Virus record (IMG/VR): IMGVR_UViG_3300032294_000207
Location: 1 to 33,773 of that record
Length of the DNA: 33,773 bases
Strand: one strand, 5' to 3'
From: a virus
The position numbers and the translations under genes were made by a program. A model generated the notes under the pieces. It ran no database searches, had not been told where the DNA came from, and worked only from the letters and a program-made list of their open reading frames with translations. Shown one piece after another: positions 3,191 to 27,824 of the stretch. Position 1 is the stretch's first letter, and each line of letters opens with the position of its first letter.

Positions 3191-3216
3191 AACTACTCCT
3201 AGTGTTGAGTTACACT

Positions 3217-3222: not shown

Positions 3223-3299
3223 CACTATAAGCATTAAGATAATTGCAAGAATATATTTAATGTCATCTATAGCACAAAGCGTGTAGCAGATAATGTAAT

Positions 3300-4517: not shown

Positions 4518-4724
4518 TTATTTGCCTAAAAAGTTGTGAGTGATATAGCCTACAAAGCCACCTAATGCTGATACAATTACCATACCAGCCCACATACCAC
4601 CACGACCTTTATTAGCAAGTTCTAATAACTCTTTAATATCTCTTTCAAGGCTTTCTACTTTATGTTCTAAAGATTCTACTTTGCCTATAAGTTTGCCATA
4701 AGATACAGGATTTATGTCGTTCAT
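4518..4724 (-). CDS. XhlA-like coiled-coil membrane protein
   Basis: 68 residues: heptad-like KVESLEHKVESLERDIKELL (about 15-34), then a glycine-rich turn and one membrane span near the C-terminus (WAGMVIVSALGGFVGYI). This matches the topology of haemolysin XhlA-type lysis accessory proteins. It starts the lysis cassette just after the collar fibre and ends directly before the protease gene. Confidence 0.65.
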   Translation of the reverse strand: MNDINPVSYGKLIGKVESLEHKVESLERDIKELLELANKGRGGMWAGMVIVSALGGFVGYITHNFLGK

Positions 4725-4726
4725 TA

Positions 4727-6720: not shown

Positions 6721-6729
6721 AATTATTCC

Positions 6730-7587: not shown

Positions 7588-7590
7588 ATA

Positions 7591-8592: not shown

Positions 8593-8595
8593 ATG

Positions 8596-11433: not shown

Positions 11434-11438
11434 ATTGT

Positions 11439-12341: not shown

Positions 12342-12344
12342 TAG

Positions 12345-12944: not shown

Positions 12945-12997
12945 TTAATTCTCCAAAGTAGTTTGGTTTGTCAAGCCTACTCACCATGAATAGACTT

Positions 12998-13024
12998 GAG
13001 AAACCCCCCTATTGCTAGGGGAGT
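12998..13024 (-). terminator. Hairpin after the capsid genes, possible partial terminator
   Basis: On the minus strand ACTCCCCTA and TAGGGGGGT pair over nine positions with one T-G wobble around a GCAA tetraloop, followed by TTCTC. It lies in the 88-base gap after the 97-aa gene. The T-run is weak, so it is likely an attenuator or RNA-stabilising end that sets capsid transcripts above those of the downstream genes. Confidence 0.6.
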
Positions 13025-13032
13025 ACTTGTTA

Positions 13033-13326
13033 CTATACAGATGCTGCTGCGAACCAGCCAAAATCACCTGTTACCATGCCATAAGCTGGAGATAGGTATG
13101 AACCACCTGAAGCTGTTGCAAGGAATGTTGTTGCGTTTACAGTACATACTGCTGTAGATGCAGCGATAGTAGCATTTGCCTTAGCAAATACATATCTCTT
13201 ACCGTCTGAACCCCAAACTTGTACACCTAATAATTGGTTTACAACTTCTTGTCCAGCCGCAATAGAAGCTGCTGTTACTACGTTTTCTAAATCAATCCCT
13301 ACTAAAGGGGTTACTGAAAAAGTCAT
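13033..13326 (-). CDS. Putative capsid decoration protein, 97 aa
   Basis: Small beta-rich, Ala/Thr/Val-rich protein (GVQVWGSDGKRYVFAKANAT). The stretch LSPAYGMVTGDFGWFA near the end resembles small capsid-associated proteins that follow the major capsid gene. 17 bases separate it from the major capsid stop. A head decoration or stabilisation role is inferred from position and composition. Confidence 0.55.
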   Translation of the reverse strand: MTFSVTPLVGIDLENVVTAASIAAGQEVVNQLLGVQVWGSDGKRYVFAKANATIAASTAVCTVNATTFLATASGGSYLSPAYGMVTGDFGWFAAASV

Positions 13327-13343
13327 TTATATTCTCCCTTTAA

Positions 13344-14339
13344 TTAAGCAATTAAGACACCGTTAAATTGTGCGCCTGAAGTGGTAAGATTACCAGCCCA
13401 GCCGATTAATTTAACAATAGCGTCTTGGTTTACAGATTGACGTTCGCCACCGATTGGCACAAAGTTTCTGTCTTTGTGTGGGCGGAAGAAAATGTAGTCT
13501 GTGTTTAAGAAATACATATGGTTAGCAGGTTGTTGCGCACCAATACCACCACCAAGTACCACGTCAGCAGATGTACCGCCACCGTAGAATTTGAGTGAAG
13601 CAAAACCTGAACCGGCCATTTCTGGATCAGTTACACGTTGGATAGCTTGCAAGCTGTTTACATATAGATTGTAGTAGTTGTTATCTGCAACGATTAAATC
13701 AGCCTTATCAGTACCACGAACTAGCTTGATAGCTAATTGTGTCATGTAAGATTGAATGTTAGCTGCTGAAACTGCTGCACCACCGTTAGTCACGCCAGAA
13801 AACGCTTGGTTTTGCCAGAATGTCCATGTAGCACGATTGATACCACCGTAAGTACCGCTTGATGGAGCATCAGCAACTGCTGCTGCTAAACCAGTAAGGT
13901 TCTTACCACCGTTACCAGTACCGTTACCATAAAGGTCAAGGTTGATACGGTTAGATAATTGTGCTTCTGCAACTTTGATACGACCTTCTAGCAAATCAAT
14001 GATTTGTTCTTTGCCAGCGTTTTGTAACATTTCAAGACCAGAGATAGTAACTGCTGAAGCGTATTGAGCAATGCTGAATTGAGCTGCAGAAATTGGGCTA
14101 TTTGGAGAAATGTTTAATGTTTCAAAGCCAGAGTAGCTGTTTGTGTTGTTTGTTGAAGTGTCATTGTACATGATTTCTTCAAGAATTACGTTACCGCCTG
14201 AGAATGGGCGTACGTTACCTTTTGACTTCAATTTTAATAGAAGCGGATTGTTGTTAGTTACGTTGTCAGCTAATTCACCAGAACGTGATTGAATGGTGGT
14301 AGCGATAATGTCACTAACGGAAGAATTGGCAAATGCCAT
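13344..14339 (-). CDS. Major capsid protein
   Basis: 331 residues, in HK97-fold style. It begins MAFANSSVSDIIATTIQSRS, then NNPLLLKLKSKGNVRPFSGG and EIMYNDTSTNNTNSYSGFET, followed by ANHMYFLNTDYIFFRPHKDR and FVPIGGERQSVNQDAIVKLI. This order is typical of major capsid proteins of small podovirus-like phages. It follows the scaffold gene, as expected, and would form the icosahedral shell. Confidence 0.85.
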   Translation of the reverse strand: MAFANSSVSDIIATTIQSRSGELADNVTNNNPLLLKLKSKGNVRPFSGGNVILEEIMYNDTSTNNTNSYSGFETLNISPNSPISAAQFSIAQYASAVTISGLEMLQNAGKEQIIDLLEGRIKVAEAQLSNRINLDLYGNGTGNGGKNLTGLAAAVADAPSSGTYGGINRATWTFWQNQAFSGVTNGGAAVSAANIQSYMTQLAIKLVRGTDKADLIVADNNYYNLYVNSLQAIQRVTDPEMAGSGFASLKFYGGGTSADVVLGGGIGAQQPANHMYFLNTDYIFFRPHKDRNFVPIGGERQSVNQDAIVKLIGWAGNLTTSGAQFNGVLIA

Positions 14340-14362
14340 AGTAAAACTCCTTAGTTAGTTAG

Positions 14363-15364
14363 TTAAATATTTTCGGTTGAAAAAGTGTCTACAATAGACG
14401 CTAATTGATCCCGAAGATTATTGCCTTTACCACCTAGACTCACGTTCGCTGTAGGCGAGCTTGACTTAGGGGATATAGCCTTAGCTTTGACTATGGCAAG
14501 TTTACTTTTCTGCTCTGTTTGGCTAGATTTAGTCTGTTCAGACTGAACCTTTTGCCAAATGTCATCATGTAAACGGATTGCTTTGTCATAAGCAGTTTGA
14601 AGGTCAGTTGCCATGTTGTTCTGGAGTAATCCAGCCATAGTTTCTCTCACTTCATCAAAGTAAGGTTTGTCCTTACTGAATGATTCAATTTCACCCTTTA
14701 ATTGGGTTTGTTCTATTTGTTCTTGTTGCGATTGGAATTGTTGCCATTGATTCTTAATTTGGCTTAATTCCTGTGCGATCATAGAGAATTGTGGGCTTGA
14801 TTGCTGTCCACCTGTTAATACTCCAAGATCAACACCGTAATCGTTTGCTAATTGTGCAAACATTTGTAATTTTTGGTCGGGGTTACCGTAAACCAAAGTT
14901 TGATGTGCAGTACCTAAGTTATTAATCCATTGTGCTGGATCAATACCATTTTGTTGTAATATAGGAGCAAATTTCTCAATACTATTTAAAATAGGTTGAG
15001 CTTGATCCCATTGTGCTTTGTAAGTAGATACACCTTTAGCAAAGTCTGATTCACGTTGAGCAATATAATCCTGTAATGTAGGATCTAATTTACCCCATGA
15101 TTCTTCATAGTCTTTTTTCCATGAAGATGGTCTTGGTTTAGCAGGTTTAGCTTCTGCTACGACTTCTTCTTGGACTTCACTTGGTGCTTCTTCTGTAACT
15201 TCTTTTGTGCTTTTAAACTTGCCAGATTCATCTCTTGGCTTGTCTGCTTTTATTTCTACTTCTGACTCTACAACTGGTGCTTCTGATACTGTTTCAACTG
15301 TTTCTACTGCACTTTCTATTTGGTCACGCAAAGATGGCGTTTCCAGAGTAGTCTGGTTTTCCAT
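14363..15364 (-). CDS. Scaffold protein
   Basis: 333 residues. Very acidic, disordered N-terminus rich in Glu, Val and Ala, with RDESGKFKSTKEV, followed by a helical region (DPTLQDYIAQRESDFAKGV, ANDYGVDLGVLTGG) with Gln-rich coiled coil (SQIKNQWQQFQSQQEQIEQ), and a basic C-terminus. Acidic, helical and directly before the major capsid gene: the classic scaffold pattern. No protease gene was recognised nearby, so it is presumably released intact, as in P22. Confidence 0.8.
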   Translation of the reverse strand: MENQTTLETPSLRDQIESAVETVETVSEAPVVESEVEIKADKPRDESGKFKSTKEVTEEAPSEVQEEVVAEAKPAKPRPSSWKKDYEESWGKLDPTLQDYIAQRESDFAKGVSTYKAQWDQAQPILNSIEKFAPILQQNGIDPAQWINNLGTAHQTLVYGNPDQKLQMFAQLANDYGVDLGVLTGGQQSSPQFSMIAQELSQIKNQWQQFQSQQEQIEQTQLKGEIESFSKDKPYFDEVRETMAGLLQNNMATDLQTAYDKAIRLHDDIWQKVQSEQTKSSQTEQKSKLAIVKAKAISPKSSSPTANVSLGGKGNNLRDQLASIVDTFSTENI

Positions 15365-15385
15365 TTAAAACTCCTAGTTAATTAA

Positions 15386-15751
15386 TTATGCTGATAATAT
15401 TGCTGCAAAGTTTCCATCACCTAAAGCGTAGAATTTGCAAGATTTACCTGCACCTACTGCTAAAGCAGCATTTGTAGAACCTGTACCAATTTTAAAGCCT
15501 ACTGGTGGCCATACATTGATAGAGTTAGCTGTGTTGTTTACGATTAAAAAGCTGTCACCAGATTGTGCTGTAGCTGGTAATGTTGGGCCATTAGCTGCTG
15601 TAGAAGTTGTATATACTACAAAGTCTGTAGGTAATGATAATGAACCTTGTGCTGCGCCTGTTGCTGTTTGTGCTAGTGATACAATACCTGTGATTGCTTC
15701 AGCGTTTAGACCAGAGCTACCAGTACCCATTAAATTTACTGTTGTTGTCAT
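15386..15751 (-). CDS. Putative capsid accessory protein, 121 aa
   Basis: Ala/Thr/Gly-rich all-beta protein (SGDSFLIVNNTANSINVWPP, GAGKSCKFYALGDGNFAAIL). The pattern resembles a beta-sandwich seen in phage head-fibre or decoration proteins. Lies directly upstream of the scaffold gene. Role inferred. Confidence 0.5.
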   Translation of the reverse strand: MTTTVNLMGTGSSGLNAEAITGIVSLAQTATGAAQGSLSLPTDFVVYTTSTAANGPTLPATAQSGDSFLIVNNTANSINVWPPVGFKIGTGSTNAALAVGAGKSCKFYALGDGNFAAILSA

Positions 15752-15760
15752 TTAGTTCTC

Positions 15761-16042
15761 CTATTTATAACGTAGTTTTTCATATACCTGACGTGCGATT
15801 TGTTCTTTCAACCGACCACCGTCAGGCTTCTGTGGTCTTGCTGAACTCTGTTCCGCCACTACTAGATTGTGACGTTTTAAATGCTCTCTATGTGCTTTAC
15901 GACCATCTATCATCTCACCTGTGACCATAGATTTGTAAGGCTGATAATCTGTCATAATGTAATGTGAATCTACCTGTTCTGTATAGTATTCTTCAGCAGG
16001 TATAAGTTTATGAGTTTTAGGATCTTGTATATATCTAGCCAT
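15761..16042 (-). CDS. Hypothetical head-region protein, 93 aa
   Basis: Basic, Tyr-rich protein: MARYIQDPKTHKLIPAEEYY, then DGRKAHREHLKRHNLVVAEQ. The middle (SMVTGEMIDGRKAHREHLKR) resembles a short motif seen in small phage proteins encoded near capsid genes. Function unknown. Its start shares one base with the upstream stop. Confidence 0.6.
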   Translation of the reverse strand: MARYIQDPKTHKLIPAEEYYTEQVDSHYIMTDYQPYKSMVTGEMIDGRKAHREHLKRHNLVVAEQSSARPQKPDGGRLKEQIARQVYEKLRYK

Positions 16043-16416
16043 TATATTAAAAGAAGGATCGCTTCTTCATCTTCCATTTCACGTTGTGCTTCTAATCTTT
16101 CATAATGTAATTTCTCTGCAAGCATGATAATACGTTCTGCTGCAGCTACATTTTGAGATAATAGTTTTAAATTTATAGAGCTTAAAGTTAAGTTTTTAGA
16201 GTTAGAGTATTCAGATACTATTTCTTGTACTTGCTCTACTACTTTTGGTTCGCCTAATAATTCTTCTAGCGATTCCTTAACAGTTTGCTTAAAAGATTTG
16301 TTATGTTTTTTATAACCACCCTTAGTAACAGGTGTGGTAGGTACTGGTGTAACAGATCCAATGATCTGAAACGCATTACGCTGAAAGCTATTGCTTTGAA
16401 AGCCAGAGTAATACAT
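16042..16416 (-). CDS. Hypothetical protein, 124 aa
   Basis: The N-terminus MYYSGFQSNSFQRNAFQIIG has the repeated xFQxNxFQ pattern seen in small phage structural proteins. The C-terminal part is a charged coiled coil (ERIIMLAEKLHYERLEAQRE). Function unknown; located between fibre and head genes. Confidence 0.6.
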   Translation of the reverse strand: MYYSGFQSNSFQRNAFQIIGSVTPVPTTPVTKGGYKKHNKSFKQTVKESLEELLGEPKVVEQVQEIVSEYSNSKNLTLSSINLKLLSQNVAAAERIIMLAEKLHYERLEAQREMEDEEAILLLI

Positions 16417-16429
16417 AGTGGCTTCTTAA

Positions 16430-16942
16430 TTAAACGCTAGGTTTTTCAGTATCAGCAACAATACTTGGTGTATTAGGATCATTAGCCCATTGTACTTGCA
16501 CAGCAGTAGCTACTTCATCTACATTCTTTGCAGATTCTATGGCTGTAATAGCTTCTTGAGCTTGTGTTCTAATCTCTGCTCTCCATGTATTCCAATCAGC
16601 AGGTACTATAGTAGATGTTTCAACAGCTTTGACCACCATCCAATCGCTTGGCAATAAAATAGAGTAAGCAGTAGCGTTAATTTGGCTAACAGCGTTAGTT
16701 TTTACACCTTCTAACTCTTTAGGAGTATTTACATAAGTTAAAGTAGCTTCATCTAGCTCTGTAGATACCCAATAATATTGATCGTTTGCTGGGCTATTAG
16801 TAGCAATTACTTCTTCTAAGCCAATAGCTTCTTTTTCTTCAAGTGTTGAAAGATTGAGCCAATTAGAAGGATATTCTACGCCATCAATGGTAAATTGATT
16901 ACCTGCATAAATATATTGTCCGTCTGTTGTTGAGTACCACAT
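16430..16942 (-). CDS. Putative tail-fibre assembly chaperone-like protein, 170 aa
   Basis: The N-terminus (MWYSTTDGQYIYAGNQFTID) and the C-terminal region (LLPSDWMVVKAVETSTIVPA, DWNTWRAEIRTQAQEAITAI) match the style of fibre-assembly or tail-assembly proteins, where a short helical domain with the LPSDW motif follows a variable head. Placed right after the large fibre gene, it may help fold or attach that fibre. Confidence 0.6.
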   Translation of the reverse strand: MWYSTTDGQYIYAGNQFTIDGVEYPSNWLNLSTLEEKEAIGLEEVIATNSPANDQYYWVSTELDEATLTYVNTPKELEGVKTNAVSQINATAYSILLPSDWMVVKAVETSTIVPADWNTWRAEIRTQAQEAITAIESAKNVDEVATAVQVQWANDPNTPSIVADTEKPSV

Positions 16943-16955
16943 AGTTTTTCCTTTG

Positions 16956-19370
16956 TTATCTTGCTAAAGCGTTTTTAAATGGGTTTTCTGCGAATGCCAT
17001 ATAGATGTAGTTATTAGCAGATTGATTAAATGAAGCATCACTACCTCTAAATTTAAAACCATTACTTAATATATCCATAGTTGTAAATGTGCCTTCAGCA
17101 CCTGATGTAGATGCTAATAAATATTTATCTACTACGTTATATGTACTTCTTGCAGTATCAACCATATACCAGTTAGCCGTTGCATCTGTAACCTTAATCA
17201 TAATGAATTTAGGTCTAAATCCTGTATAAACAAATGGACCATCAGCACTACCATTACCTGTGTAAGAACCAAAGCGACTAAATCCTGCTATTTCTGCCCA
17301 GCAATAAGCTACATAGGTTGTTGCACTAGCATTAATACCACCATAAGCACCAATACCAAATGTGGTTGAGCTTGGAGCAGTTGAACCCCAATAATTTGCA
17401 AGATTATTATAGGCTGCATCTGTTGCATTTAAAAATATGTATCTTTGAACACCTAAATCTGCATGGTATATAGGCCAAGGGTTAGTTGCATTTCTTGATT
17501 TAACAATTATCATTTTAGGGCCTACGCCTAAACCATGACCAACAGTAGAAGCTGTATTATTGCCTGTATAAGTAACCACACTAAACCCAGCAGTTGCATT
17601 TACAGATACAGTAGATGTAATAGAGCCTGATGTGTTAGATGATGTTGAGCCTTGTCCAGCTTGCCATTGCCATCCTACATAAGTTCCATTATTTTTATTT
17701 GTATATGATGTTGCACCATCAGAACCTCTTGTAACAGTAAATCCTGAAGAAGTAAATCCATCTAAATAACCATAAGTAGAGTTATCGTTTTGTGAACCTT
17801 CTGCTACAGTTGTGTTAGAACACAATGCTTTACTTGCACTAGATGTGCTAGGACCTCTAATAGAATCATATAATATGTGGTCAATTGCAATATCTCGTTC
17901 TTTTAACCACACAAAGTCAGGTTTAAATAATGCTGCATTAGTAATTGTTCTAGAAAGTGAACCATTACCTGTCCATATTGTTGCATCCATAAACCTATTA
18001 CCTTGCAATATAGTAGGTGTAGGAAGGTTATATGTGTTTAGTGCTACAAATCCTGTAGGAGGTGTGTATGCAAATGGGCGTTGTCCACAATTTAATACTA
18101 CTGTAGGTTGATTTCCTACTGCACCTTTACCTGCAAAAGGTCCAAATGTTCCAGTTAAACCAGAGTAAGCTTCGTTAGTGCCAGCAGATGGATTTCCACT
18201 TGCTTGCCATGTATTATTTTTTCCAAACCATACCTTTCCAGAGTCCATATCTAATGCAACTTGAATAATATCATTTACTGCATATGAACTACCAAAAGAA
18301 GAGCCAGTAACAGTACCACTTTGAAATGAATATTTAGTTCCATCTCCATAGTATGATCTAGCAATTAAACCTGATTCAAGCACAGCACCATTTAATTGTG
18401 TAATACCAATATGTAAAATGGTTGACGAAATTGCTTCAACTGTAGTTTCCCAATAAAATTTGCCAGATGACACACCAATAGTAGGACTAATCCAAACCTC
18501 GTTAGCAGTTCCAACAAATCTTAAATTACCATTGCTATAAGTTGCACTTGAACTAACTAATGGATTCCATGTGCAGTAATTACCAACAGTAGCACTTGTA
18601 TTAGTAGGACTATCTTTCATAGCATCATAGGTTGCACCTGCTGTTACAGATATATTATTAGTATTCCAGAAGTTTCCGTTGCCTGAAAAGTCACGACCTA
18701 AACCTGTGTTAGAACCTGATGTAAGAGCTATGTCAGTAAAGTTTAGGTAGAATCCGTTAGTACCGTATGTGCCTGTGTATCTAGCTGGTTGCCATACACC
18801 TGTAGTAGCGTTAAATGATCCAAATGATGATGGTGTTAATTGTTGTCCATCAATCCAATTAATTTCATCCATGTAACCATCAAAAGCATCACTTACATCA
18901 TTAACACCAATTCTTTGAGCTACTGTGTTGTTGTAAGCAGTATCATAGTTTTGTATAGGATAAACAGCAGTTGAAAATGCTGTAACTTCATTTCCATTTA
19001 TATATAATCTAACTCTGTTAGCTGCTGTAGCTTGTGTTGTATCCACAGCTAATACAATATGATACCAAGCTGAAGGATCACGAAATACTTGAGTTGTTAC
19101 TAATAAATATGTTCCATTACCAAAATTTACACGCATATTGTTTGATAATAAATCAACAGCACAAAAAGCTGTAGAAGATGCAGCAGATAATAAAAATTGA
19201 TGTGAATCTAATGCACCTCTTTTTACCCAAGCTGACCAAGTAAATGTTCTTCTATTACCAGCAACACTTGGTGTTCTTGTTAAAGATGCTGTAGCACTTC
19301 TTCTAAATCTTAAAGAGTTAGTTAAGTTGTATCCTGTGCTTGCTGCACCTGATTTAGACGCACTAAACAT
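16956..19370 (-). CDS. Large receptor-binding fibre with LamG-like and SPRY-like domains
   Basis: 804 residues. About 40-215: LamG/concanavalin-like fold (RTFTWSAWVKRGALDSHQFL; DPSAWYHIVLAVDTTQ; VRLYINGNEV; YMDEINWIDGQQL). About 265-450: SPRY-like segment (GKFYWETTVEAISSTILHIG; DIIQVALDMDSGKVWFGKN). About 460-804: repeated beta modules of DUF7483 style (FKPDFVWLKER; VGPKMIIVKSR; FRPKFIMIKV) ending IYMAFAENPFKN. Both recognisable domain types bind sugars or proteins in other proteins, so this is the best candidate for host-surface recognition. One-base overlap with the upstream fibre gene. Confidence 0.8.
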   Translation of the reverse strand: MFSASKSGAASTGYNLTNSLRFRRSATASLTRTPSVAGNRRTFTWSAWVKRGALDSHQFLLSAASSTAFCAVDLLSNNMRVNFGNGTYLLVTTQVFRDPSAWYHIVLAVDTTQATAANRVRLYINGNEVTAFSTAVYPIQNYDTAYNNTVAQRIGVNDVSDAFDGYMDEINWIDGQQLTPSSFGSFNATTGVWQPARYTGTYGTNGFYLNFTDIALTSGSNTGLGRDFSGNGNFWNTNNISVTAGATYDAMKDSPTNTSATVGNYCTWNPLVSSSATYSNGNLRFVGTANEVWISPTIGVSSGKFYWETTVEAISSTILHIGITQLNGAVLESGLIARSYYGDGTKYSFQSGTVTGSSFGSSYAVNDIIQVALDMDSGKVWFGKNNTWQASGNPSAGTNEAYSGLTGTFGPFAGKGAVGNQPTVVLNCGQRPFAYTPPTGFVALNTYNLPTPTILQGNRFMDATIWTGNGSLSRTITNAALFKPDFVWLKERDIAIDHILYDSIRGPSTSSASKALCSNTTVAEGSQNDNSTYGYLDGFTSSGFTVTRGSDGATSYTNKNNGTYVGWQWQAGQGSTSSNTSGSITSTVSVNATAGFSVVTYTGNNTASTVGHGLGVGPKMIIVKSRNATNPWPIYHADLGVQRYIFLNATDAAYNNLANYWGSTAPSSTTFGIGAYGGINASATTYVAYCWAEIAGFSRFGSYTGNGSADGPFVYTGFRPKFIMIKVTDATANWYMVDTARSTYNVVDKYLLASTSGAEGTFTTMDILSNGFKFRGSDASFNQSANNYIYMAFAENPFKNALAR

Positions 19371-19990
19371 TAATAGTTTTGTCCGAAGATAGAACCATAA
19401 GTGTTAGTTCCGTCTTGATAGAAGTTAAATATATCTAGCTTACCTGTAGCTGATGTAGGTGTTGGCGTTGTGCTACCTGCCCATCTTAATGTAGAGCCAC
19501 CAGCCCATGTAATAGCATCTGCTGCTGCATAACTTACGATCACAGTAAATGATTTACCTGCTACACTTGCTGGTAATGTGATTGTAGTAGAGCCAGATGT
19601 TGTAATTCTTTGTATAGTACCATTGGATAACGCTATTGTTGTGCTACCTGTTGCTGTAAATAGTGTTTCTGTGTAATTTGTAATGGTTGGGTTAGTTAGC
19701 GTAGCTGTTGTAATGCTAGGGCTTGTAGAAAATACAATGTTTGTAGATGTAGTTCCTGTAGCACCTGTAGCTGTGTAACCTGTAATGTTATTAAATGCAG
19801 TAATACTTGCAGATGATGCATTTGTGCCACCGTTAGCAACTGGTAATACACCTGTGATACCTGTAGAAAGTGGTAAACCTGTACAATTTGTTAATGTACC
19901 AGAAGCAGGTGTTTGTAGTATGAGAGCATCAGCAGTTTGCAGTTCTTCTATTGAAGTTCCTGAAAGTACTAATGGGTAAAAATTTGACAT
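19370..19990 (-). CDS. Tail fibre protein, 206 aa
   Basis: Thr/Ser/Gly-rich, with the LPVANGGTNASSASITAFNN module also seen in variant form in the larger upstream fibre (GGTGQTT). The C-terminus (GGSTLRWAGSTTPTPTSATG, then NTYGSIFGQNY) is like short fibre ends. Probably a separate subunit of the same fibre. Confidence 0.7.
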   Translation of the reverse strand: MSNFYPLVLSGTSIEELQTADALILQTPASGTLTNCTGLPLSTGITGVLPVANGGTNASSASITAFNNITGYTATGATGTTSTNIVFSTSPSITTATLTNPTITNYTETLFTATGSTTIALSNGTIQRITTSGSTTITLPASVAGKSFTVIVSYAAADAITWAGGSTLRWAGSTTPTPTSATGKLDIFNFYQDGTNTYGSIFGQNY

Positions 19991-20002
19991 ATTTCTTCCT
20001 TG

Positions 20003-21967
20003 TTAAGATACCGCTACATTAATTGTAGAACCACCGTTAGTTAATATTGGTAACACACCATTTGCTACTGAAACGTCAGCAGTAGATGTTCCACTATGTA
20101 ATAATACTATTAATTTACTTGGTAGTGTAGACCATGATGTATTTGTGCCATCAGTTTTTAAGAACTTACCAGTATTAGATGTTTGTGATGGTGCTAAAGC
20201 ATTAAATGCAGCATTTGCTGTAGTTTGTCCTGTACCACCACTACTAATTCCTAATGTACCTGCTAAAGTAACTACGCCTGTAGATGCTGTAGAAGGTGTA
20301 AGTCCGCTTAATGATGTTTGGAATGATGTAACACCAGTTGCTGTTGCTGATAATGTACCAGCAGAAAATGTTAATCCTGTGCCTACTGTAACATTGCTAA
20401 ATCCACCAGATCCGTTACCATATAAAATAGAAGTTCCGCTAGTAGCTGGAGCTTTGCTATTAAATGTATTCCAATCTGTAGAGCTTAACCAACCATTTGT
20501 TGATCCGCTAGATTGTGTCATGCTTACTGTAAAGTTAGGATATGTTCCTGTGACACTTACAGGGCTTGTACCTGATATAGCTACTGTTTGATCTGGAGCA
20601 GAGTTTGTAACTGTTACAGAACCTGCACCGTTAGTTACAGATATACCTGTACCTGCTGTAAGGTTTGCATTTTTCCATACACCTATTGGGCTAGTAGATG
20701 CGTCATAAATTAACATATTGCCACTTGTAGGGCTTGTGATTCTAACGTCATGTAGCTCATCTAGCTCATAACCATTGTCAATTTTTACATAAATTGAACC
20801 TACAATATTATCAACACGTTCTACCCAACCAATTACAACTAATTGCTGTGGAGCTTGTGGTTTTGTAGTAGTTACCGCACCTGCTGTTGTGGGTGATAAG
20901 TAAACTGTAGCACCAGCAGTTAAACCTGTAGTGTTTAGTTTATATAAAGCACCTGATACAATAATAAAGCCTTCTGCACCGTTTGCAATAGTTTCAGCAA
21001 CTAAACCAATTGTACCGAAAGATGTAGCTTCTACGTCAGCTCTTGCTAATTTAACAGCTACACGATTACCTTGTGCGCCTGAGATATAAACTACTTGGCC
21101 TTTTGTTAAAGTTGTACCGCTATCATTGTAAACTCTTGCTAATTCTTGTGTACCTACCTGTAAATTAACATTGCCACCTTTTACAGCAACAATAGGTACT
21201 CCATCACCATCATCCCATGACATTGTGCCAACAGTTGTCGGTACAGTTCCTGGTGTAGTATCTAAACCTAAGCTATTAGCATTAATGATGTTACCTGTAT
21301 CGTCTAGCGTTACAGTTGAGTTTTGGATTAACTTACCTGTGGTAGTGTCAAATCTTGTAATAGCATTATCTGTAGCAGATGCTGGGCCTACTACATCACC
21401 TGTACCACCAGCTGTAGCATTTAATGTGCCACCTGAAAATGTTAAGTTTGTGCCGATTGTTACGTTACTAAATCCACCTGAGCCATTACCATAAAGAATA
21501 GATGTGCCAGATGTTGCTGGTGCTTTGTTATTAAATGTAGTCCAGTCTGTAGATGTTAAGTATCCGTTTACAGACGCTGTAGCTGCTGGCATGGATATAA
21601 CTGGAGTAGTTGTACCTGTGGCTACTGATACTGGAGCTGTACCTGTAACAGAAGTAACTGTACCTACACCGCCTGCTGCAATCCATGATGTGTTTGTACC
21701 ATCTGTGCTTAATACTTTACCTGCTTGACTTGATTGGCTAGGTAATAAAGCATTGATAGCTGCTGTAGCTGTAGTTTGACCAGTACCGCCATTAGCAATA
21801 GGAACTGTACCAGATATTGTATGGTCATTATTCCAATCTGATGGTAAAACAATGTCAGCTAGTAATGTGCCAGGTGGAAAGTTACCTAACGCAATCTGAG
21901 CATCTAAGTCGGCTTGTGTCCAGTCCGCTATGGTGTCCGTCTTGGCATGTTTAATGGTTATTGCCAT
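20003..21967 (-). CDS. Long modular tail fibre protein, 654 aa
   Basis: Starts MAITIKHAKTDTIADWTQAD, with PSDWNNDHTISG at about 42-53, often seen at the base-attachment end of fibres. It contains two copies of a GGTGQTT/TDGTNTSW module (about 60-96 and 577-613) and two copies of a STDW-TFN-KAPATSG module (about 134-188 and 491-545). The centre (LARVYNDSGTTLTKGQVVYI, then YELDELHDVRITSPTSGNML) resembles capsid-fibre repeat units. Rich in Gly, Thr, Ser. Directly downstream of the portal gene, an uncommon location. Confidence 0.75.
   Translation of the reverse strand: MAITIKHAKTDTIADWTQADLDAQIALGNFPPGTLLADIVLPSDWNNDHTISGTVPIANGGTGQTTATAAINALLPSQSSQAGKVLSTDGTNTSWIAAGGVGTVTSVTGTAPVSVATGTTTPVISMPAATASVNGYLTSTDWTTFNNKAPATSGTSILYGNGSGGFSNVTIGTNLTFSGGTLNATAGGTGDVVGPASATDNAITRFDTTTGKLIQNSTVTLDDTGNIINANSLGLDTTPGTVPTTVGTMSWDDGDGVPIVAVKGGNVNLQVGTQELARVYNDSGTTLTKGQVVYISGAQGNRVAVKLARADVEATSFGTIGLVAETIANGAEGFIIVSGALYKLNTTGLTAGATVYLSPTTAGAVTTTKPQAPQQLVVIGWVERVDNIVGSIYVKIDNGYELDELHDVRITSPTSGNMLIYDASTSPIGVWKNANLTAGTGISVTNGAGSVTVTNSAPDQTVAISGTSPVSVTGTYPNFTVSMTQSSGSTNGWLSSTDWNTFNSKAPATSGTSILYGNGSGGFSNVTVGTGLTFSAGTLSATATGVTSFQTSLSGLTPSTASTGVVTLAGTLGISSGGTGQTTANAAFNALAPSQTSNTGKFLKTDGTNTSWSTLPSKLIVLLHSGTSTADVSVANGVLPILTNGGSTINVAVS
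20333..20497 (-). repeat. Fibre module copy B
   Basis: 55-residue coding unit (residues 491-545 of the 654-aa fibre), NGWLSSTDWNTFNSKAPATS followed by GTSILYGNGSGGFSNVTVGT; nearly the same protein sequence as copy A at 21404-21568, with silent and conservative changes. Confidence 0.75.
21404..21568 (-). repeat. Fibre module copy A
   Basis: 55-residue coding unit (residues 134-188), NGYLTSTDWTTFNNKAPATS followed by GTSILYGNGSGGFSNVTIGT; paired with copy B. The core of about 22 residues from KAPATSG to GGFSNVT is identical. Confidence 0.75.
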
Positions 21968-24174
21968 TATTTAACCCCTATAATCTTACCATTCGCATCA
22001 CGAACAACTGTCTTAGGTCTAGTCATTTGTTCAACAAGTGCTTGATGTGCCATTTCTTGTTTAGCAGCCAATTCTTGATTGTGTGCATGATTAGCTTGGA
22101 TAAGCTCTGTCACGTTCTGATTAACCGCTTGTAATACACCTTGAATTTCGTCTGTTAGATGTAAGTTACCTTCATGGTCAATATCAACAAGTGGATCAGC
22201 CAACGGATTAGCTTGCATGTATTGTTGTTTGAGTTTTGTCTTAGACTCTAATTCAGCCACAAATATCTTAGTTTCATTTTCTAGTTTAGATTTCCAAGCG
22301 TCAAACTCTAATCTTTGTTTTTCTAGAGCTTGATCTAGCTCTGCTTTATGCTGACGTTCTCTCATGTCATTTTCAGCTTGAGCTTGTTGTTTCTGAGCTT
22401 CTAATTGTATCTCTTGTGCCTTCATTTGTGTTTGATTTTCTAATTCAGCTTGACGTGCTTGTGCTTCCATCTGAATCTTCATCATCTCTGGATCAGGCTT
22501 AGGTTGTTTAGGTTGTTTAGCTTGTTCTTTAATAGCATCTACCACGTTATCAAATTCTCCTTCAACAACTCTACCCACTCTGTAACCTGTAACACCGAAT
22601 TTTAACAGATCCATGAGTAGTGGTGTAGCTTCTGGTGGCATAGCTTGAGCAGCTTGTGTAGCTCTTTCTAAATATGTACCGACAGCACCTAAGAAAGCAA
22701 CACGATCTTCTTTTTCTCTTTGCTCATCTTGGTAAAGCATAGAATCTGTTGCTACTTCTATACGGAATGTACGCATAGGATTGCTTTTAAGCATTTCAAT
22801 CGCTTGTGGGATTAATTGCTGATCGTCTGGGCTTAACTGATTTACGCCACCAATCTTAACCAATGTTTCTGGTTGGAAGTGTTGGCAGATAATCTGTGCT
22901 TTAATCTTAAGAATGTTAGAAGCATAGAAAGCTACACCGTCTTGGTATTCTTTTAAGCGTAAAGATGCAAATTGACTCTTGATTTGAGCTGATGTGGCTG
23001 TTTCTATGATATTAGATTGACCACGAATAATATCAGATATACCAGTAATATCGTAGATTTCTTGCTTAAGCTGTGCCATAGCTTCATAAGCATTTTTAAG
23101 AGCCATAGCGATAGGTGTGATGTCCACAACATCAATAGCACCTCTAAGACCTTGTTTTTCAGAGAACGCAGGCCAGTTCTTAACAGGAATAAGTGTATTG
23201 TTTTCACCCTCTGTAAATAGCCTTTGTAATGTTGGTTCTGATGCGTCATATACACCACGAACTTTTAATGCGTCTATAAGCCCAGAAATGCGTGTAGCGA
23301 GTACATCTAAAGCATTAGCTTGGTCTTGATATAATGTAAAATCTGGAATAGGTACTAATGTTTCGTTAGTGATTGTTGCATAGAGTGGTTTAGGGCATGG
23401 AAAAAATTCTTCTAGCTGTAACGGATCATCTCTTTCATCTAAGATTTCATTGAGTGATTTAGAAATCCACATAACCTTTTTAGTTTCACGATCCCATAGC
23501 TCAATGATAAGACCTTTCTTACCAATGCCATCTGAATCTTTATACTTTTGCTCATCTGGTGATGAGTCTAATGGTACTTTGTTACCTAGTTCTTCACCAA
23601 ATCTGTCTACTAAAGCCTTGCGTGTCATGTAAACTTTACGCCATACTTTGTTTACTTCATCCCATGTTCTTGCTGGCTCATGTCCAAAGTCTTTCCAATG
23701 TACATAGTCTACTGGAGCTGCTTCTGAATCTAAGTATTCTGCTGATTCTTCTGATTCTTCGTTTTGCTCAGATACACCGTAGTCTTGTGACTCAATCTTA
23801 GGCTCATAACGAACCCATGCTGATCCACGACCACCTAAGAATCTGTCATATACAGACGCTTCTAAGCAATGCTTAAGATCACCATAGTGAGTAATCTCAA
23901 AATCCATTGCTCTTTCTAGGATAAGTGATGCGACTCTACCTACTGGATCATTATCTTTAAATCTGCGTGATACATCTGCCTTAGGCATGCGTGAGAATGT
24001 AGCTGATTTCAGCGTGTTTACATTAGCCCATAGCATATTGTATCGTGATTGGGTTGAATTGGTTTGGCGTTCATCCCTGTATCTACGCAATATCTTGTCA
24101 GATCGGTTCATCCATTTGGAGAACTCTTTGTCATACTGCGTGACAGCGTTTAGGTAAAGTTCTACTTTAGTCAT
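21967..24174 (-). CDS. Portal protein, P22 type
   Basis: 735 residues, the size of P22 gp1-like portals. It starts MTKVELYLNAVTQYDKEFSK, then RSDKILRRYRDERQ, followed by WANVNTLKSATFSRMPKADV. The middle has KNAYEAMAQLKQEIYDITGI and SDIIRGQS, the typical portal segment. From about 580 a long Gln/Lys/Glu coiled coil corresponds to the P22 barrel. It forms the DNA channel and docks terminase. It overlaps the fibre gene by one base. Confidence 0.9.
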   Translation of the reverse strand: MTKVELYLNAVTQYDKEFSKWMNRSDKILRRYRDERQTNSTQSRYNMLWANVNTLKSATFSRMPKADVSRRFKDNDPVGRVASLILERAMDFEITHYGDLKHCLEASVYDRFLGGRGSAWVRYEPKIESQDYGVSEQNEESEESAEYLDSEAAPVDYVHWKDFGHEPARTWDEVNKVWRKVYMTRKALVDRFGEELGNKVPLDSSPDEQKYKDSDGIGKKGLIIELWDRETKKVMWISKSLNEILDERDDPLQLEEFFPCPKPLYATITNETLVPIPDFTLYQDQANALDVLATRISGLIDALKVRGVYDASEPTLQRLFTEGENNTLIPVKNWPAFSEKQGLRGAIDVVDITPIAMALKNAYEAMAQLKQEIYDITGISDIIRGQSNIIETATSAQIKSQFASLRLKEYQDGVAFYASNILKIKAQIICQHFQPETLVKIGGVNQLSPDDQQLIPQAIEMLKSNPMRTFRIEVATDSMLYQDEQREKEDRVAFLGAVGTYLERATQAAQAMPPEATPLLMDLLKFGVTGYRVGRVVEGEFDNVVDAIKEQAKQPKQPKPDPEMMKIQMEAQARQAELENQTQMKAQEIQLEAQKQQAQAENDMRERQHKAELDQALEKQRLEFDAWKSKLENETKIFVAELESKTKLKQQYMQANPLADPLVDIDHEGNLHLTDEIQGVLQAVNQNVTELIQANHAHNQELAAKQEMAHQALVEQMTRPKTVVRDANGKIIGVK

Positions 24175-24176
24175 GC

Positions 24177-24452
24177 TTATGCAAATACCACAGTAGCACT
24201 AAGAGTACCGCCTACAACAATGTAGATGCCAGCAGTTGTACCTACGGGCATTGGATACCATGTGCCTGCTGTTACTGAAACTGTGTCAATTACTTTAGCT
24301 GTTGTGGTAGTAGTAGCACTATCATAAACTGTGATTGTGCCTGAAGATGATGATGAAACAAATATGCCTAATAAACTAGCACCAAATGGTGATACGTTAC
24401 CTGTTGCTGATATAAGTTTATAACCACCTACGTTTTGATTTGTGCCTGCCAT
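24177..24452 (-). CDS. Small beta protein between terminase and portal, 91 aa
   Basis: I use ATG 24452 (MAGTNQNVGGYK), which has GGAAGGAT 7 bases upstream, rather than the GTG at 24467. Gly/Thr/Ser-rich beta protein (LGIFVSSSSSGTITVYDSAT, then GIYIVVGGTLSATVVFA). Similar small proteins sit among phage packaging or head genes. Possible head accessory or decoration protein; function unknown. Confidence 0.6.
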   Translation of the reverse strand: MAGTNQNVGGYKLISATGNVSPFGASLLGIFVSSSSSGTITVYDSATTTTTAKVIDTVSVTAGTWYPMPVGTTAGIYIVVGGTLSATVVFA

Positions 24453-24453
24453 T

Positions 24454-25824
24454 TTAAATCCTTCCACCTTGTGTTTTAGGGATCGTATCCCATAATTCGT
24501 TTAATGTTACTTCTGTTTTACCTACATGCAATCCTCTAGGCTTATCGTCTTTCTTCTCAACCTTAGCTTCTTCTTGCCAACATACAGCCAAGTATCTCCA
24601 AGAATCTGAAAAATGAGATGTCCAATCGTGTTTAGGTTTATCTTTGAATATCTTGCGATCCTCATCCCATTCACGTTGATATTGCTTTAGAGCTTCTATA
24701 CCGTCTGCACAGTTTTCTTTATCTATCCATACTCTCGGAAACATAAGTCTTGCAGCTTGTATACCATCCATCATAGATAGATTAGTAGTGATACGCATAT
24801 TCTTCCACTCAAAGTGAGCAGCTAATTGTTCTACAATAGATTTGCCACCAGATGCTAGAGTTTTAGCTTTAGCGTCATGCGGTAAATGATGTAGTCCAAA
24901 CTTATAGGGTTTGGTAAGCACTTGCGCAGCATAGTGAGCTATTTCTTTACCACTTGAAGCATAACAGTCAATGACATGGACTTCACCATGAATGACTTGA
25001 TAGAACCATATAGCTGTATCATCACTATATCCTAGATCCCATACTGTGTGTACAGGAACTTCTTTATCATAAGGAACTCTTGTAATGCGGCCTTCTTGCT
25101 CTGCCATGTATAACTCTCTACCCCATATAGCACCAGGTATAGCAGCGTCAAAATCACATTCCATCTCTTGTCGCCAAGCATCTTCAGTCATCTCGTTTTT
25201 CAGAGAATCATATTCGCTTGGCAGAAGTATATTACTTTCTGATGCTGTGATCTTGAGTGCCAGCCATTCGCTACTGGTAGTAGCCCTGTTATACACTTCC
25301 CAGAATTGGTTGCGACCTTTAGGTGTGCCAATAATAATAGCTTTACCTTGTCTATCGGCTAACGCTGGGCGTATAACATAATTCCATACTGACGGTTTCC
25401 AATCACCATACTCGTCAGCTATGATGCAATCAAAGAACAGACCACGAAGTGTATCTGCATTATCTGCACCAAATAATTGTATTCTTGCACCGTTAGCAAA
25501 GTCTATTCGCATTTCAGACTCGTTAATCGTAGTGCCTTGTATAACTCTTGTGAAGTATTTAAAGTAATCCCATGCAACACTCTTGGCCTGCCTGTAATAT
25601 GGGGCAATATATGCACCACGAAAATCAGTTCTTTGTGTTGTCATAGCATCTCGTATAAGATGATTAACACAAGCTACAGTTTTACCTGCACGTCTATGGG
25701 CTACAACAACTACCCATCTTTTGTTATTACTATGTAATGGCTTGAAAGCCTGTCTTGGTGAATAAGGGATATGAACGACTGTAGGTTCTATCTCTTGTTC
25801 TTCTACAATCTCATTTTCCATCAT
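24454..25824 (-). CDS. Terminase large subunit
   Basis: 456 residues. ATPase: Walker A AHRRAGKT (about 42-49), adenine-binding PYSPRQAF (about 20-27) and Walker B CIIADE (about 133-138). Motif III-like IIIGTPKGRNQFW follows. The nuclease domain starts at VWDLGYSDDTAIWF (Asp263), with HDWTSHFSDSWRYLA near the end. It cuts and translocates DNA into the prohead. It overlaps the small-subunit-like gene by 14 bases. Confidence 0.95.
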   Translation of the reverse strand: MMENEIVEEQEIEPTVVHIPYSPRQAFKPLHSNNKRWVVVVAHRRAGKTVACVNHLIRDAMTTQRTDFRGAYIAPYYRQAKSVAWDYFKYFTRVIQGTTINESEMRIDFANGARIQLFGADNADTLRGLFFDCIIADEYGDWKPSVWNYVIRPALADRQGKAIIIGTPKGRNQFWEVYNRATTSSEWLALKITASESNILLPSEYDSLKNEMTEDAWRQEMECDFDAAIPGAIWGRELYMAEQEGRITRVPYDKEVPVHTVWDLGYSDDTAIWFYQVIHGEVHVIDCYASSGKEIAHYAAQVLTKPYKFGLHHLPHDAKAKTLASGGKSIVEQLAAHFEWKNMRITTNLSMMDGIQAARLMFPRVWIDKENCADGIEALKQYQREWDEDRKIFKDKPKHDWTSHFSDSWRYLAVCWQEEAKVEKKDDKPRGLHVGKTEVTLNELWDTIPKTQGGRI

Positions 25825-26098
25825 CTAACCATTTATACTGAACTTCACCGCTATGCTCAGTCTTTTGGTTTACTTCTGAAGGTATTAGCTTGGAATATAG
25901 TCTGTAAAACTCTGTTTGGTTCTCAGTAGCCCATATAGCCATCTGAGCAGTTCCACCTAAACGATTAAATACAGCTAATACATTATCTTTAACTGTAGCA
26001 TTTACTTTATTAGGCGTGCCTTTTTGTCTGCCGCCAGTCTTTTCTCTAGTAGAATTATCTACTTTAGAAGTTAAATCATTGTTTTCATTCATTTTCAC
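25811..26098 (-). CDS. Probable terminase small subunit-like protein
   Basis: 95 residues with GGRQKGTPNKVNATVKDNVL, then FNRLGGTAQMAIWATENQTE and FYRLYSKLIP. This pattern is commonly seen in the gene directly before a large terminase. The N-terminus is basic and could bind DNA. It lacks the long oligomerisation domain of classic small terminases, so the assignment rests on position and motif. Confidence 0.65.
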   Translation of the reverse strand: MKMNENNDLTSKVDNSTREKTGGRQKGTPNKVNATVKDNVLAVFNRLGGTAQMAIWATENQTEFYRLYSKLIPSEVNQKTEHSGEVQYKWLDDGK

Positions 26099-26131
26099 TC
26101 ATAATTGGGGTAGCCCAATTCCTCGTTATTA

Positions 26132-26311
26132 TTATTTGTATTTTGTAAGTGCTTTGGCCATCTTTTTAGGATCAGATTGGGAGTTTTTAAAGGCTTCCTT
26201 TGTTGGTGCGCCTTCACTTCCAGGTTTACGCATTTGCTCACCTGATCCAGCTTCTATTCTTTTTCTTTTAGCATGGATATTAGCCCATAAACCAGGTTTG
26301 CTGTTTTGCAT
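26132..26311 (-). CDS. Small DUF6321-like protein, 59 aa
   Basis: The sequence KPGLWANIHAKRKRIEAGSG followed by MRKPGSEGAPT matches a small, basic phage family (DUF6321-like) often found near terminase. ATG 26311 was chosen. The end DPKKMAKALTKYK resembles the end of the 53-aa protein at 27013 (DPQKLAKALMRK). Function unknown. Confidence 0.75.
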   Translation of the reverse strand: MQNSKPGLWANIHAKRKRIEAGSGEQMRKPGSEGAPTKEAFKNSQSDPKKMAKALTKYK

Positions 26312-26320
26312 ATGATATCC

Positions 26321-26677
26321 TTACTTTAGGTTTTCTAGCTTGTAAATTGCTGTTAAGAATACAGCTACGATTTCGTCTATCTTGTTTTGTATAGCTGTTT
26401 CGTTCTTGCTAAATACTTTATAGCGATTGTTTTCTATGTATTGTAGTTTGTCAGCGATACAGTATAAAGCTTCTTTGTATGATTTCTTTTCTGTAAGAAT
26501 AGGTATATCTAATAGGCCATGTGCGCCCTGTGTCATTTCTGTGAGATCATCTATCAAGTCTAATAGATCTTCGTAGAAGTTTTGTAGAGCTTTGTGTTGT
26601 GAATAGCTTTTAGTAGATAAGTGGTATCTATGTGCTAATTCTCTAGCTAAGAATAGTGTGGCGATAAATTCATTCAT
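26321..26677 (-). CDS. DUF5856 family protein
   Basis: 118 residues, all helical: FIATLFLARELAHRYHLSTK, then SYSQHKALQNFYEDLLDLID. These match DUF5856, whose members look like ferritin/Dps-type bundles. The function is unknown. Here it lies between small genes at the head of the late operon. Confidence 0.7.
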   Translation of the reverse strand: MNEFIATLFLARELAHRYHLSTKSYSQHKALQNFYEDLLDLIDDLTEMTQGAHGLLDIPILTEKKSYKEALYCIADKLQYIENNRYKVFSKNETAIQNKIDEIVAVFLTAIYKLENLK

Positions 26678-26678
26678 A

Positions 26679-27011
26679 TTAAGATACCTGAGTTGATTGT
26701 AGCATTTGTGATGGTCTTGCTAGTCCTACACCAAATCTGTTTTGACCTTGTGTTTGCTGTATGCCCATAGGGCCTTGTGGTACTTGATTCATGTTTGGTA
26801 TAGGTGGTTGCATGTTAAATGATACGTTTGATTGTGGCATTTGCATGTTACTCATTTGCGGAGTAGGATTGCCGTATTGCTTTGGTGCTAACATCTTTGG
26901 CTGACTGTAGTCTTGAGTGCTTGGCATATTACGCAAAGCGTTACCTAACATTTGATTTTTAGGTTGTTGGTTTTGCATAGTATTAAAATTGTTTTCTGGT
27001 GAGCCGATCAT
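26679..27011 (-). CDS. Low-complexity Gln/Asn/Met/Pro-rich protein, 110 aa
   Basis: Unordered composition (NMQPPIPNMNQVPQGPMGIQ). No domain expected. The start ATG follows two bases after the upstream stop. Function unknown; such disordered proteins near terminase are frequent in this phage type. Confidence 0.6.
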   Translation of the reverse strand: MIGSPENNFNTMQNQQPKNQMLGNALRNMPSTQDYSQPKMLAPKQYGNPTPQMSNMQMPQSNVSFNMQPPIPNMNQVPQGPMGIQQTQGQNRFGVGLARPSQMLQSTQVS

Positions 27012-27012
27012 A

Positions 27013-27174
27013 TTATTTTCTCATTAGAGCCTTAGCTAATTTTTGTGGATCTTTCTTTACGCCTTCTGATGCCATCTTTGCAGCAGTAGCCTGTGGTATG
27101 CCAACCTTTTTAGCTATTGCTGGGTTATGTTCTGCAGCTTTGAAAAGTTTATTTTGTTTGGCTGTGTAAGGCAT
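27013..27174 (-). CDS. Small basic protein, 53 aa
   Basis: MPYTAKQNKLFKAAEHNPAI, then KKVGIPQATAAKMASEGVKK: a short phage family with a helix-turn-helix look, found next to head genes. It overlaps the zinc-ribbon gene by 26 bases. Function unknown. Confidence 0.7.
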   Translation of the reverse strand: MPYTAKQNKLFKAAEHNPAIAKKVGIPQATAAKMASEGVKKDPQKLAKALMRK

Positions 27175-27310
27175 CTTTAGCTTTCTGAAGTAATTTGGGT
27201 ATCTCTTTGTCTATTTTGGTAGTATCACCATCTCTAATACATTCAGGGCAAGTGGGGTAGCCAGTATAGTCATATACCTCGCCACAACTCTCGCATACGC
27301 TTATTTTAAT
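27149..27310 (-). CDS. Zinc ribbon protein with ATT start codon, 53 aa
   Basis: ISVCESCGEVYDYTGYPTCP followed by EC gives two CxxC pairs of a zinc ribbon, with a charged helical tail. The longer ORF from 27394 reads through the strong terminator at 27335-27364 and its ATG lies at the presumed transcription start, so a later start is needed. GGAG (27318-27321) is exactly 7 bases before an in-frame ATT (27310), giving (M)KISVCESC. No ATG, GTG or TTG is available there. It would be the first gene of the late operon after the terminator. Protein real; start uncertain. Confidence 0.6.
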   Translation of the reverse strand: MKISVCESCGEVYDYTGYPTCPECIRDGDTTKIDKEIPKLLQKAKDALHSQTK

Positions 27311-27334: not shown

Positions 27335-27364
27335 AAAAAAAGCCCACGTTTTAAGTGAGCTTTT
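27335..27364 (-). terminator. Rho-independent terminator at the head of the late operon
   Basis: On the minus strand AAAAGCTCAC pairs with GTGGGCTTTT around TTAAAAC, with one T-G wobble, followed by a run of seven T. About 30 bases downstream of the predicted start from TATAAT at 27400-27405. In the lambda arrangement this would be tR', read through only with antiterminator. Confidence 0.85.
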
Positions 27365-27399
27365 ATGGAACATATAGATACAATTATCCCACAACTGCG

Positions 27400-27430
27400 A
27401 TTATATCAAAATTTGACCTACTTGTGTGAA
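27400..27430 (-). promoter_or_regulatory. Candidate late promoter (pR'-like)
   Basis: TATAAT at 27400-27405 and TTCACA at 27425-27430 on the minus strand, with a 19-base spacer, longer than ideal. The start is predicted near 27393. The only downstream genes are the late operon, after the terminator. Confidence 0.6.
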
Positions 27431-27451
27431 TTATTTTGCCTGTAAATATGA

Positions 27452-27491
27452 TTTTCACTCAAAATACTGGCAAATTAGTTTTGAATGAAAA
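27452..27491. repeat. Inverted repeat upstream of the late promoter
   Basis: Arms TTTTCACTCAAAA (27452-27464) and TTTTGAATGAAAA (27479-27491) differ at one position. Each arm lies in a smaller dyad (AGTTTT and AAAACT). It abuts the stop codon of the Q-like gene and lies 22 bases upstream of the -35 element. It could be a binding site for a regulator, or an RNA hairpin ending the early transcript. Confidence 0.5.
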
Positions 27492-27824
27492 CTAGGCATT
27501 TATGCGTCTATCTGCAATAGTGAGTAGGTTATCAAAGGCAAGCTCTAATTTAAACTCATAAGCAAAAGGCTTTCTAGTTTTGAGAAACCTACAATAGACA
27601 GCATCTTGTTGCTCTTTAGGTAAGCTATGGATAATAGCGTCTATAACATGTACATTCTTTAAATCTTGAGCTAATACCATATCCTCAAACGCATCTGCTG
27701 TAGATTCACCGCCTGAACTAAAACCTACTGCGCTTTTAGGGTATCCCAGTTTATGGCTATCATGTGATTTCATATACAATGCCCAGTCCTCACAAATGCA
27801 CAATAATCTATCCGTTGTTAGCAT
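27492..27824 (-). CDS. Q-like late antiterminator (putative)
   Basis: 110 residues. The pattern CEDWALYMKSHDSHKLGYPK, then HVIDAIIHSLPKEQQDAVYC and FKLELAFDNLLTIADRRI resembles phage Q-type antiterminators and DUF1133-like relatives: an N-terminal Trp helix, a GYP-S motif, a central two-helix pair, and a C-terminal HTH-like helix. It is the last gene of the leftward early transcript, immediately before the promoter and terminator of the late operon, exactly where Q lies in lambda. It overlaps the 54-aa gene upstream by 17 bases. Direct family proof would need a profile search. Confidence 0.65.
   Translation of the reverse strand: MLTTDRLLCICEDWALYMKSHDSHKLGYPKSAVGFSSGGESTADAFEDMVLAQDLKNVHVIDAIIHSLPKEQQDAVYCRFLKTRKPFAYEFKLELAFDNLLTIADRRINA

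Follow-up and report, generated by a model that had tools for sequence, protein, structure and literature searches.

A putative Q-type late-gene switch with a very small antiterminator-like protein in uncultured aquatic phages

A 33.8-kb phage contig (a viral record of 33,773 bases, analysed at its full length and hereafter called the window) carries on its minus strand all the parts of a late-gene switch, running from a gene for a 110-aa protein through an extended −10 promoter, a leader and an intrinsic terminator into 25 kb of late genes. This gene order recurs in more than 100 related aquatic phages, hence the protein most likely lets RNA polymerase pass the stop and so switches on the virion genes. 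We consider it highly probable that this is a Q-type late switch, in which a processive antiterminator from a very small Q-like family would be loaded at a promoter-proximal pause. A large group of uncultured aquatic phages with unknown gene control would thereby gain one recognisable late switch, with a reach of up to 500 homologue-bearing stretches in one IMG/VR scan, and the protein (107–113 aa in the non-redundant homologue set) would offer a very small Q-like example for structural work on antitermination. No description of the element was found in the open-access literature by title or abstract, and the accessible portions of the papers on Melnitz, MEP301 and Venkman (PMC9004378, PMC8024684, PMC8163748) gave no hit to “antiterminat”.

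Architecture of the late-gene locus

The original prediction read this locus as a lambda-like succession of Q gene, late promoter, leader, terminator and late operon, an order which holds in the window (Table 1) and is conserved in relatives. Its TATAAT promoter was confirmed as an extended −10 accompanied by a weak −35, and it is owing to this poor −35 that a consensus promoter scan did not list the site. The expected transcript of about 60 bases agrees with a predicted leader of ~58 nt, measured up to the T run from a start that the −10 would put at ~27393, the seven-T terminator was recovered, and the 25-kb late operon is borne out by late genes from 27.3 to 2.45 kb, among which the terminase large subunit, portal and major head protein were recognised using PHROGs. 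Early and late genes share one strand in the window. The pattern of extended −10, 11 nt and GATAAT matched once in the window and never in 100 shuffles, and the 60 nt from 27392 are predicted to fold into exactly two hairpins, those of the leader and the terminator (−17.3 kcal/mol, z = −4.67).

Table 1 Features of the late-switch locus in the window
Feature	Position	Strand	Description
Q-like gene, 110 aa	27492..27824	−	ORF; last gene of the early strand; proposed antiterminator
−35 hexamer position, 17-bp spacing	27423..27428	−	CACACA, 3/6 consensus matches; within conserved ACACAAG
Extended −10, TG-A-TATAAT	27400..27408	−	Late promoter; TATAAT at 27405–27400, TG upstream
−10-like GATAAT	27383..27388	−	11 bp past the −10, in the initially transcribed region; candidate for a sigma-dependent pause
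Leader hairpin GUGGGAUA...UGUUCCAU	27365..27392	−	Predicted fold and covariation
Intrinsic terminator, seven T	27335..27364	−	Stem 27364–27338; tR'-like
First late gene, small zinc-ribbon protein, 53 aa	27149..27310	−	Apparent ATT start
Late operon: terminase, portal, head and tail genes	2453..27310	−	Would be under switch control

A scan of the late strand below the terminator (27337 to 2450) gave no credible rival promoter: two sites, at 17411 and 8406 and both within ORFs, reached a fairly lax promoter score, versus 11.1 ± 3.4 in Markov sequences. These are weak sites and not the strong promoter which, together with a lack of Q similarity, the original prediction had named as evidence against itself.

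The dyad repeat that was predicted ahead of the promoter does exist, as an imperfect pair of 13-nt arms with 92% complementarity (27452–27464/27479–27491). Of the 39 close relatives carrying the element, six have this dyad in the interval from the Q stop codon to the promoter, where an AT-rich insertion (27430–27491 in the window) holds several imperfect inverted repeats. As an insertion confined to these six the dyad is no conserved part of the switch, and it was rejected as an operator or switch component. A fixed CACAA...TTGTG inverted repeat was dropped by eye as a Q-binding element, being broken in ATGTG variants.

Further observations concern the genes around the switch. The expected start of the zinc-ribbon gene has no ATG, GTG or TTG; an ATT with GGAG upstream takes this place, and relatives use ATG or GTG. 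Of 146 loci tested, 86 have a zinc-ribbon ORF downstream of the element, the count for the L053 group being 0 of 59. The late strand ends with a gene (2453–3190, minus) for a DNA polymerase exonuclease subunit (phrog_403, E = 6.8e-90), an unexpected neighbour of virion genes. The plus strand carries, at 922–1302 and outside the late operon, an endolysin-like gene for a cell-wall hydrolase (PF07486, E = 2e-16; endolysin by PHROGs), a placement unlike that of the lysis genes of lambda.

Conservation of the element with the gene

IMG/VR was searched with the protein and its relatives, at most 80 loci being kept per search (80 of 408, 80 of 500 and 80 of 136 in three of these), and with the element, and the matches were pooled with the window and named records to give 310 homologue-bearing sequences. 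Of these, 197 were distinct over the gene and 250 nt downstream, with at least 200 nt present there. Within 150 nt of the homologue’s stop, 155 of the 197 distinct loci showed a promoter and, after it, a terminator, compared with 2 of 385 ends of other ORFs from these loci. Sorted by closest query, hits were obtained for the window (32/38), L300 (33/41), L053 (63/64) and L147 (27/29), and the element followed Q in none of the 25 loci closest to marine queries (L054, 0/20; L043, 0/5). Thirteen of the 17 non-marine misses, L184 among them, have the complete element further on, past an insert or inserted ORF, and in these it lies just before the first late gene wherever the locus is long enough. 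The element is also present in L179, where the contig ends inside the terminator, L220 has promoter and leader with an imperfect stem, and no element was seen before the contig end in L031 and L124.

The slot directly after Q takes inserted ORFs in L022, L029, L031, L034, L038, L115, L117, L122, L124, L131, L151, L179 and L184. Most of these ORFs start alike (TTGCATGGTGATTG) and, judged by eye, look DNA methylase-like.

Searching IMG/VR with nothing but the window-type element returned 39 stretches, all on homologue-bearing contigs: 38 lay on contigs already known to carry the gene and the 39th, L079, has a diverged copy. In L079 (6920–7310) a diverged Q with 44% identity to that of the window precedes an element nearly identical to the window’s, as if Q and element had recombined. 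No relative was found in the GTDB genomes scanned, and Rhodoferax phage P26218, which is among the closest terminase relatives, had no Q homologue at the threshold used.

Among 19 window-clade elements the −10 hexamer is identical in all 19 and the next 28 nt are 91–92% identical; Q codons of this clade show 62% identity at third positions and 92% at first and second positions, so that leader nucleotides 1–28 match the first and second codon positions of the protein in conservation. TTGACA is perfect in clades A (L053 type) and B (L147 type), with a TG extension in 42/45 and 18/18, hence these promoters should be strong unaided, and the terminator is still kept. The upstream ACACAAG is conserved within the window clade, and no upstream element is common to the clades.

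A very small protein with a predicted 21Q-like fold

The predicted Q-like character of the last early gene is upheld by homologue annotations and a predicted fold, and not by family profiles. Direct homologues include Venkman gp37, an “antitermination-like protein” (MT375522, 57% identity), and a “phage antitermination protein Q” in MW202481 (62% identity), annotations which are names only. The profile search against Q families proposed in the original prediction gave no match, and the window protein had nothing above cut-off in Pfam, PHROGs, NCBIfam or PDB sequences; its pentatricopeptide matches were taken for a repeat artefact. PF06530 (Phage_antitermQ, curated cut-off 26 bits) was not hit by the window protein; relatives hit it below threshold at 17.3–19.7 bits (best E = 0.00087), collinear over residues 4–82. 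QuuD, a PF06530 member from the E. coli K-12 prophage DLP12, matches 21Q, the Q protein of phage 21 (E = 7.6e-7), and hhalign of alignment A6 against eight PF06530 members was not significant (probability 0.6, E = 0.095). By sequence the window protein would not be placed in PF06530. As no Q-family profile matches it, what it shares with Q is a matter of structure and architecture.

In AlphaFold2 models built on 24 and 66 sequences (pLDDT 80 and 83) the N-terminal helix is long, residues ~22–41 form a disordered loop and the C-terminal part is helical. When 145 chains were re-aligned to the first model the top four rows were all 21Q (Z 6.0–6.1, 88–95 residues), and among 269 chains aligned to the second 21Q came first (6jnx_P, Z 5.8, 93 residues, rmsd 7.8) and fifth (6p19_Q, Z 5.3), with sigma region 4 chains at Z up to 5.5 spanning only about residues 27–110; a VIA-align Z near 6 is middling, and Foldseek E-values were not significant for either model. 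Among good fold matches only 21Q spans the N-terminal helix and the C-terminal part. The models suggest a 21Q-like fold, which would share the topology of phage 21 Q (PDB 6p18-6p1c, 6jnx, 6jny): an N-terminal helix, a mobile loop and a sigma-region-4-like helix-turn-helix. They would also fit the anatomy given for 21Q in the accessible text of PMC6606751, with H1, a mobile H2 whose loops ring the RNA exit channel, and H3–H6 like sigma region 4. AlpA shares the 21Q fold without sequence homology, as far as the available part of PMC9371919 describes it, hence an absence of sequence similarity does not speak against a Q function.

Comparison with known late switches

Lambda Q/pR'/tR' shows the same gene order, with a short constitutive leader, a terminator and the late operon; its pause sequence and the 5' hairpin predicted for it are placed as they are here. 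The lambda leader, at ~194 nt, differs in length from the ~58 nt of the window, and no sequence relation was found between lambda Q and the window protein. The phage 21 late promoter, like that of the window, has a downstream −10-like element (available text of PMC6606751). At 162 aa, however, 21Q is larger than the 110-aa protein and has no significant sequence similarity to it, and the 6-bp TGAGCA direct-repeat binding element of phage 21 has no identified counterpart in the window. AlpA of Pseudomonas and GafZ of the Caulobacter GTA are described, in the accessible parts of PMC9371919 and PMC11150451, as small DNA-binding antiterminators that work from a single promoter on a terminator downstream. 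The elements they bind sit between −35 and −10. Neither protein appeared in the sequence and fold match lists of the window protein, an absence which excludes nothing.

Pause signals and hairpins in the leader

The consensus pause takes the form GG(−11,−10)...Y(−1)G(+1), and the lambda pause lies at +16/+17. This form was present in 30/30 unique leaders of clade A, 10/10 of clade B and 18/20 of clade C (shuffle means 1.1, 0.2 and 0.5), with Y(−1) 20–23 nt past the −10 hexamer, at approximately the position of lambda’s pause sequence (GGGTTAATTCG). The window clade possessed it in 0 of 14 unique leaders. A −10-like hexamer with at least four of six matches was found in all 14 of these leaders (shuffles 5.3), and one with at least five of six in 11 (shuffles 2.0); the hexamer was found in 25/30 leaders of clade A (shuffles 6.3), 6/10 of clade B (2.5) and 2/20 of clade C (4.0). 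In clade A the mutual spacing of −10-like hexamer and consensus pause differs from lambda’s, so that either might be the active signal. The leaders carry sequence signatures of pausing, a −10-like hexamer in the window clade or a consensus pause in the other clades. The spacing of −10 and GATAAT in the window, exactly 11 bp, agrees with that reported for E. coli distal sigma70 pauses (available text of PMC7876045).

A 9-pair leader hairpin was formed in 97.2% of cells across 12 distinct window-clade leaders, where four pairs are invariant, three vary on one side, one varies on both sides (U-G to G-C, three leaders) and one is broken in three. For clades A to C, 23 equal-spacing leaders (23 distinct 22-mers with GG at −11,−10, other stem-loop lengths being left out) formed a 4-pair stem spanning the pause in 95.7% of cells, and one pair of this stem is G-C in 10, A-U in 8, G-U in 2 and broken in 3. 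The covariation score was reached by 1 of 500 shuffles for the window clade and 5 of 500 for the 4-pair stem, in controls which ignore relatedness and with structures picked on these same sequences. Leader and terminator hairpins are both kept by compensatory or GU changes.

Scored singly against mononucleotide shuffles, leaders showed an excess dyad score in clades B (11.6 vs 7.6) and C (12.1 vs 8.8) and no real excess in A (10.5 vs 10.3) and D (11.7 vs 10.7). Folding z-scores of 32-nt leaders were unremarkable in A (−0.19) and modest in B (−1.37), C (−1.47) and D (−2.13), and a 34-nt piece of lambda leader gave −2.5. Since dyad scores and folding z-scores are modest, the case for the hairpin rests on covariation, mainly in the window clade, and is weak for clade A. 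The leader had no Rfam match, and we take the covarying hairpin to be new here. Together, the −10-like or consensus pause by clade and the compensated hairpin form a natural leader series in which the requirements of a Q-loading signal would be directly testable. The leaders of clades A to C also conserve, below their hairpin and ~30–38 nt after the −10, a CGTAA-like motif (CTCCGTAA, AACGTAAT).

Proposed mechanism and alternative explanations

Under a Q-type switch, the host holoenzyme would start at the extended −10 promoter (27405) and halt ~15–28 nt from the start, in the window clade through sigma region 2 on the −10-like GATAAT and in the other clades at the consensus pause. Without the 110-aa protein the polymerase would resume and stop at the terminator ~58 nt from the start. 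Once made by the early operon, the protein would bind DNA at the late promoter with its helix-turn-helix and insert its N-terminal helix and flexible loop into the RNA exit channel, and the modified polymerase would then ignore this and later terminators and transcribe the 25-kb late operon. What the sequences show directly are the parts and their order, their joint conservation, pausing signatures, the want of a rival promoter and a predicted fold like that of 21Q; antitermination, DNA binding, loading at the pause and timing are steps which we infer. One short RNA and Q would then decide all structural gene expression, as originally suggested. The order expected of such a switch, in which an antiterminator gene closes the early operon and is followed by late promoter, leader, terminator and late operon, holds, although not by adjacency in the marine clade. 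We count against a Q switch the want of a Q-family profile match and of a nameable Q-binding element, the sub-threshold PF06530 hits, the non-significant profile-profile and Foldseek comparisons with their middling VIA-align Z, the window clade’s want of a consensus pause, the scarcity of the −10-like hexamer in clade C and the marine 0/25.

The poor −35 of the window would also suit an activator with a sigma-region-4-like fold that recruits polymerase to this weak site, the terminator being a leaky end of the early operon. The second model does align with sigma region 4, and one A1 member hits Sigma70_r4_2 (E = 0.012). We nevertheless regard an activator as unlikely: clades A and B, with a perfect −35 and extended −10, need none, yet gene and terminator stay together there, the fold match covering both the N-terminal helix and the C-terminal part is that of 21Q, and activation would not explain why the initially transcribed region is the most conserved part of the element.

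The compensatory and GU changes in both hairpins might equally be expected of an autonomous attenuator or small regulatory RNA, working alone or with a host factor and unrelated to the neighbouring gene. This is very unlikely, as the leader has no Rfam match and varies between clades whereas the gene is kept, and the window-type element was found only on homologue-bearing contigs (39/39). It is scarcely credible that the arrangement is incidental, an early terminator beside a chance promoter with the late genes read by leakage from the early operon. The shared strand of early and late genes in the window would allow such leakage, but the contrast with control ORF ends (155/197 versus 2/385), the fact that ORF insertion after Q leaves the element beside the late genes and the convergence of the two operons in Venkman all argue against it.

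A more elaborate version of the Q-type switch, which we put forward tentatively and hold to be doubtful, is a separate Q lineage with a hairpin gate at the loading pause and a marine Q acting in trans on a distant leader. The gate would be a short hairpin of RNA (or non-template DNA) across the loading pause, which each of the four non-marine clades would build from different sequences and which is also predicted for lambda. A polymerase leaving the pause without Q could allow the hairpin to fold and so shut the loading window or prevent backtracking, and resistance to termination would be limited to polymerases caught at the pause. The marine branch would use the same Q, working in trans, with its leader at a great distance in the genome. 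A part for a hairpin in such a switch is possible, since a hairpin of non-template DNA at a consensus pause serves to recruit RfaH (available text of PMC5995543).

The marine branch

In Venkman and its relatives varying ORFs directly follow Q, and the late operon of Venkman converges with the Q gene, running from the other side. No element was detected in Venkman when it was scanned for the motif of the window. Upstream of gp72, a gene on the late strand, a promoter-like sequence (TTGTGGATAACTTAAAATGATGATATAAT), a leader and a weak terminator-like sequence (CCCTTATAAATCAAGG) are common to Venkman and record G003. The candidate leader lies at 351 on the minus strand of Venkman and derives from a promoter-terminator scan and comparison with one relative, its terminator being weak. 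These two sequences suggest, as a lead, that the marine Q may work in trans on a distant leader, and the separation of the marine clade’s Q from its candidate late leader would likewise be new here. The terminator-like CCCTTATAAATCAAGG resembles the terminators of clade A.
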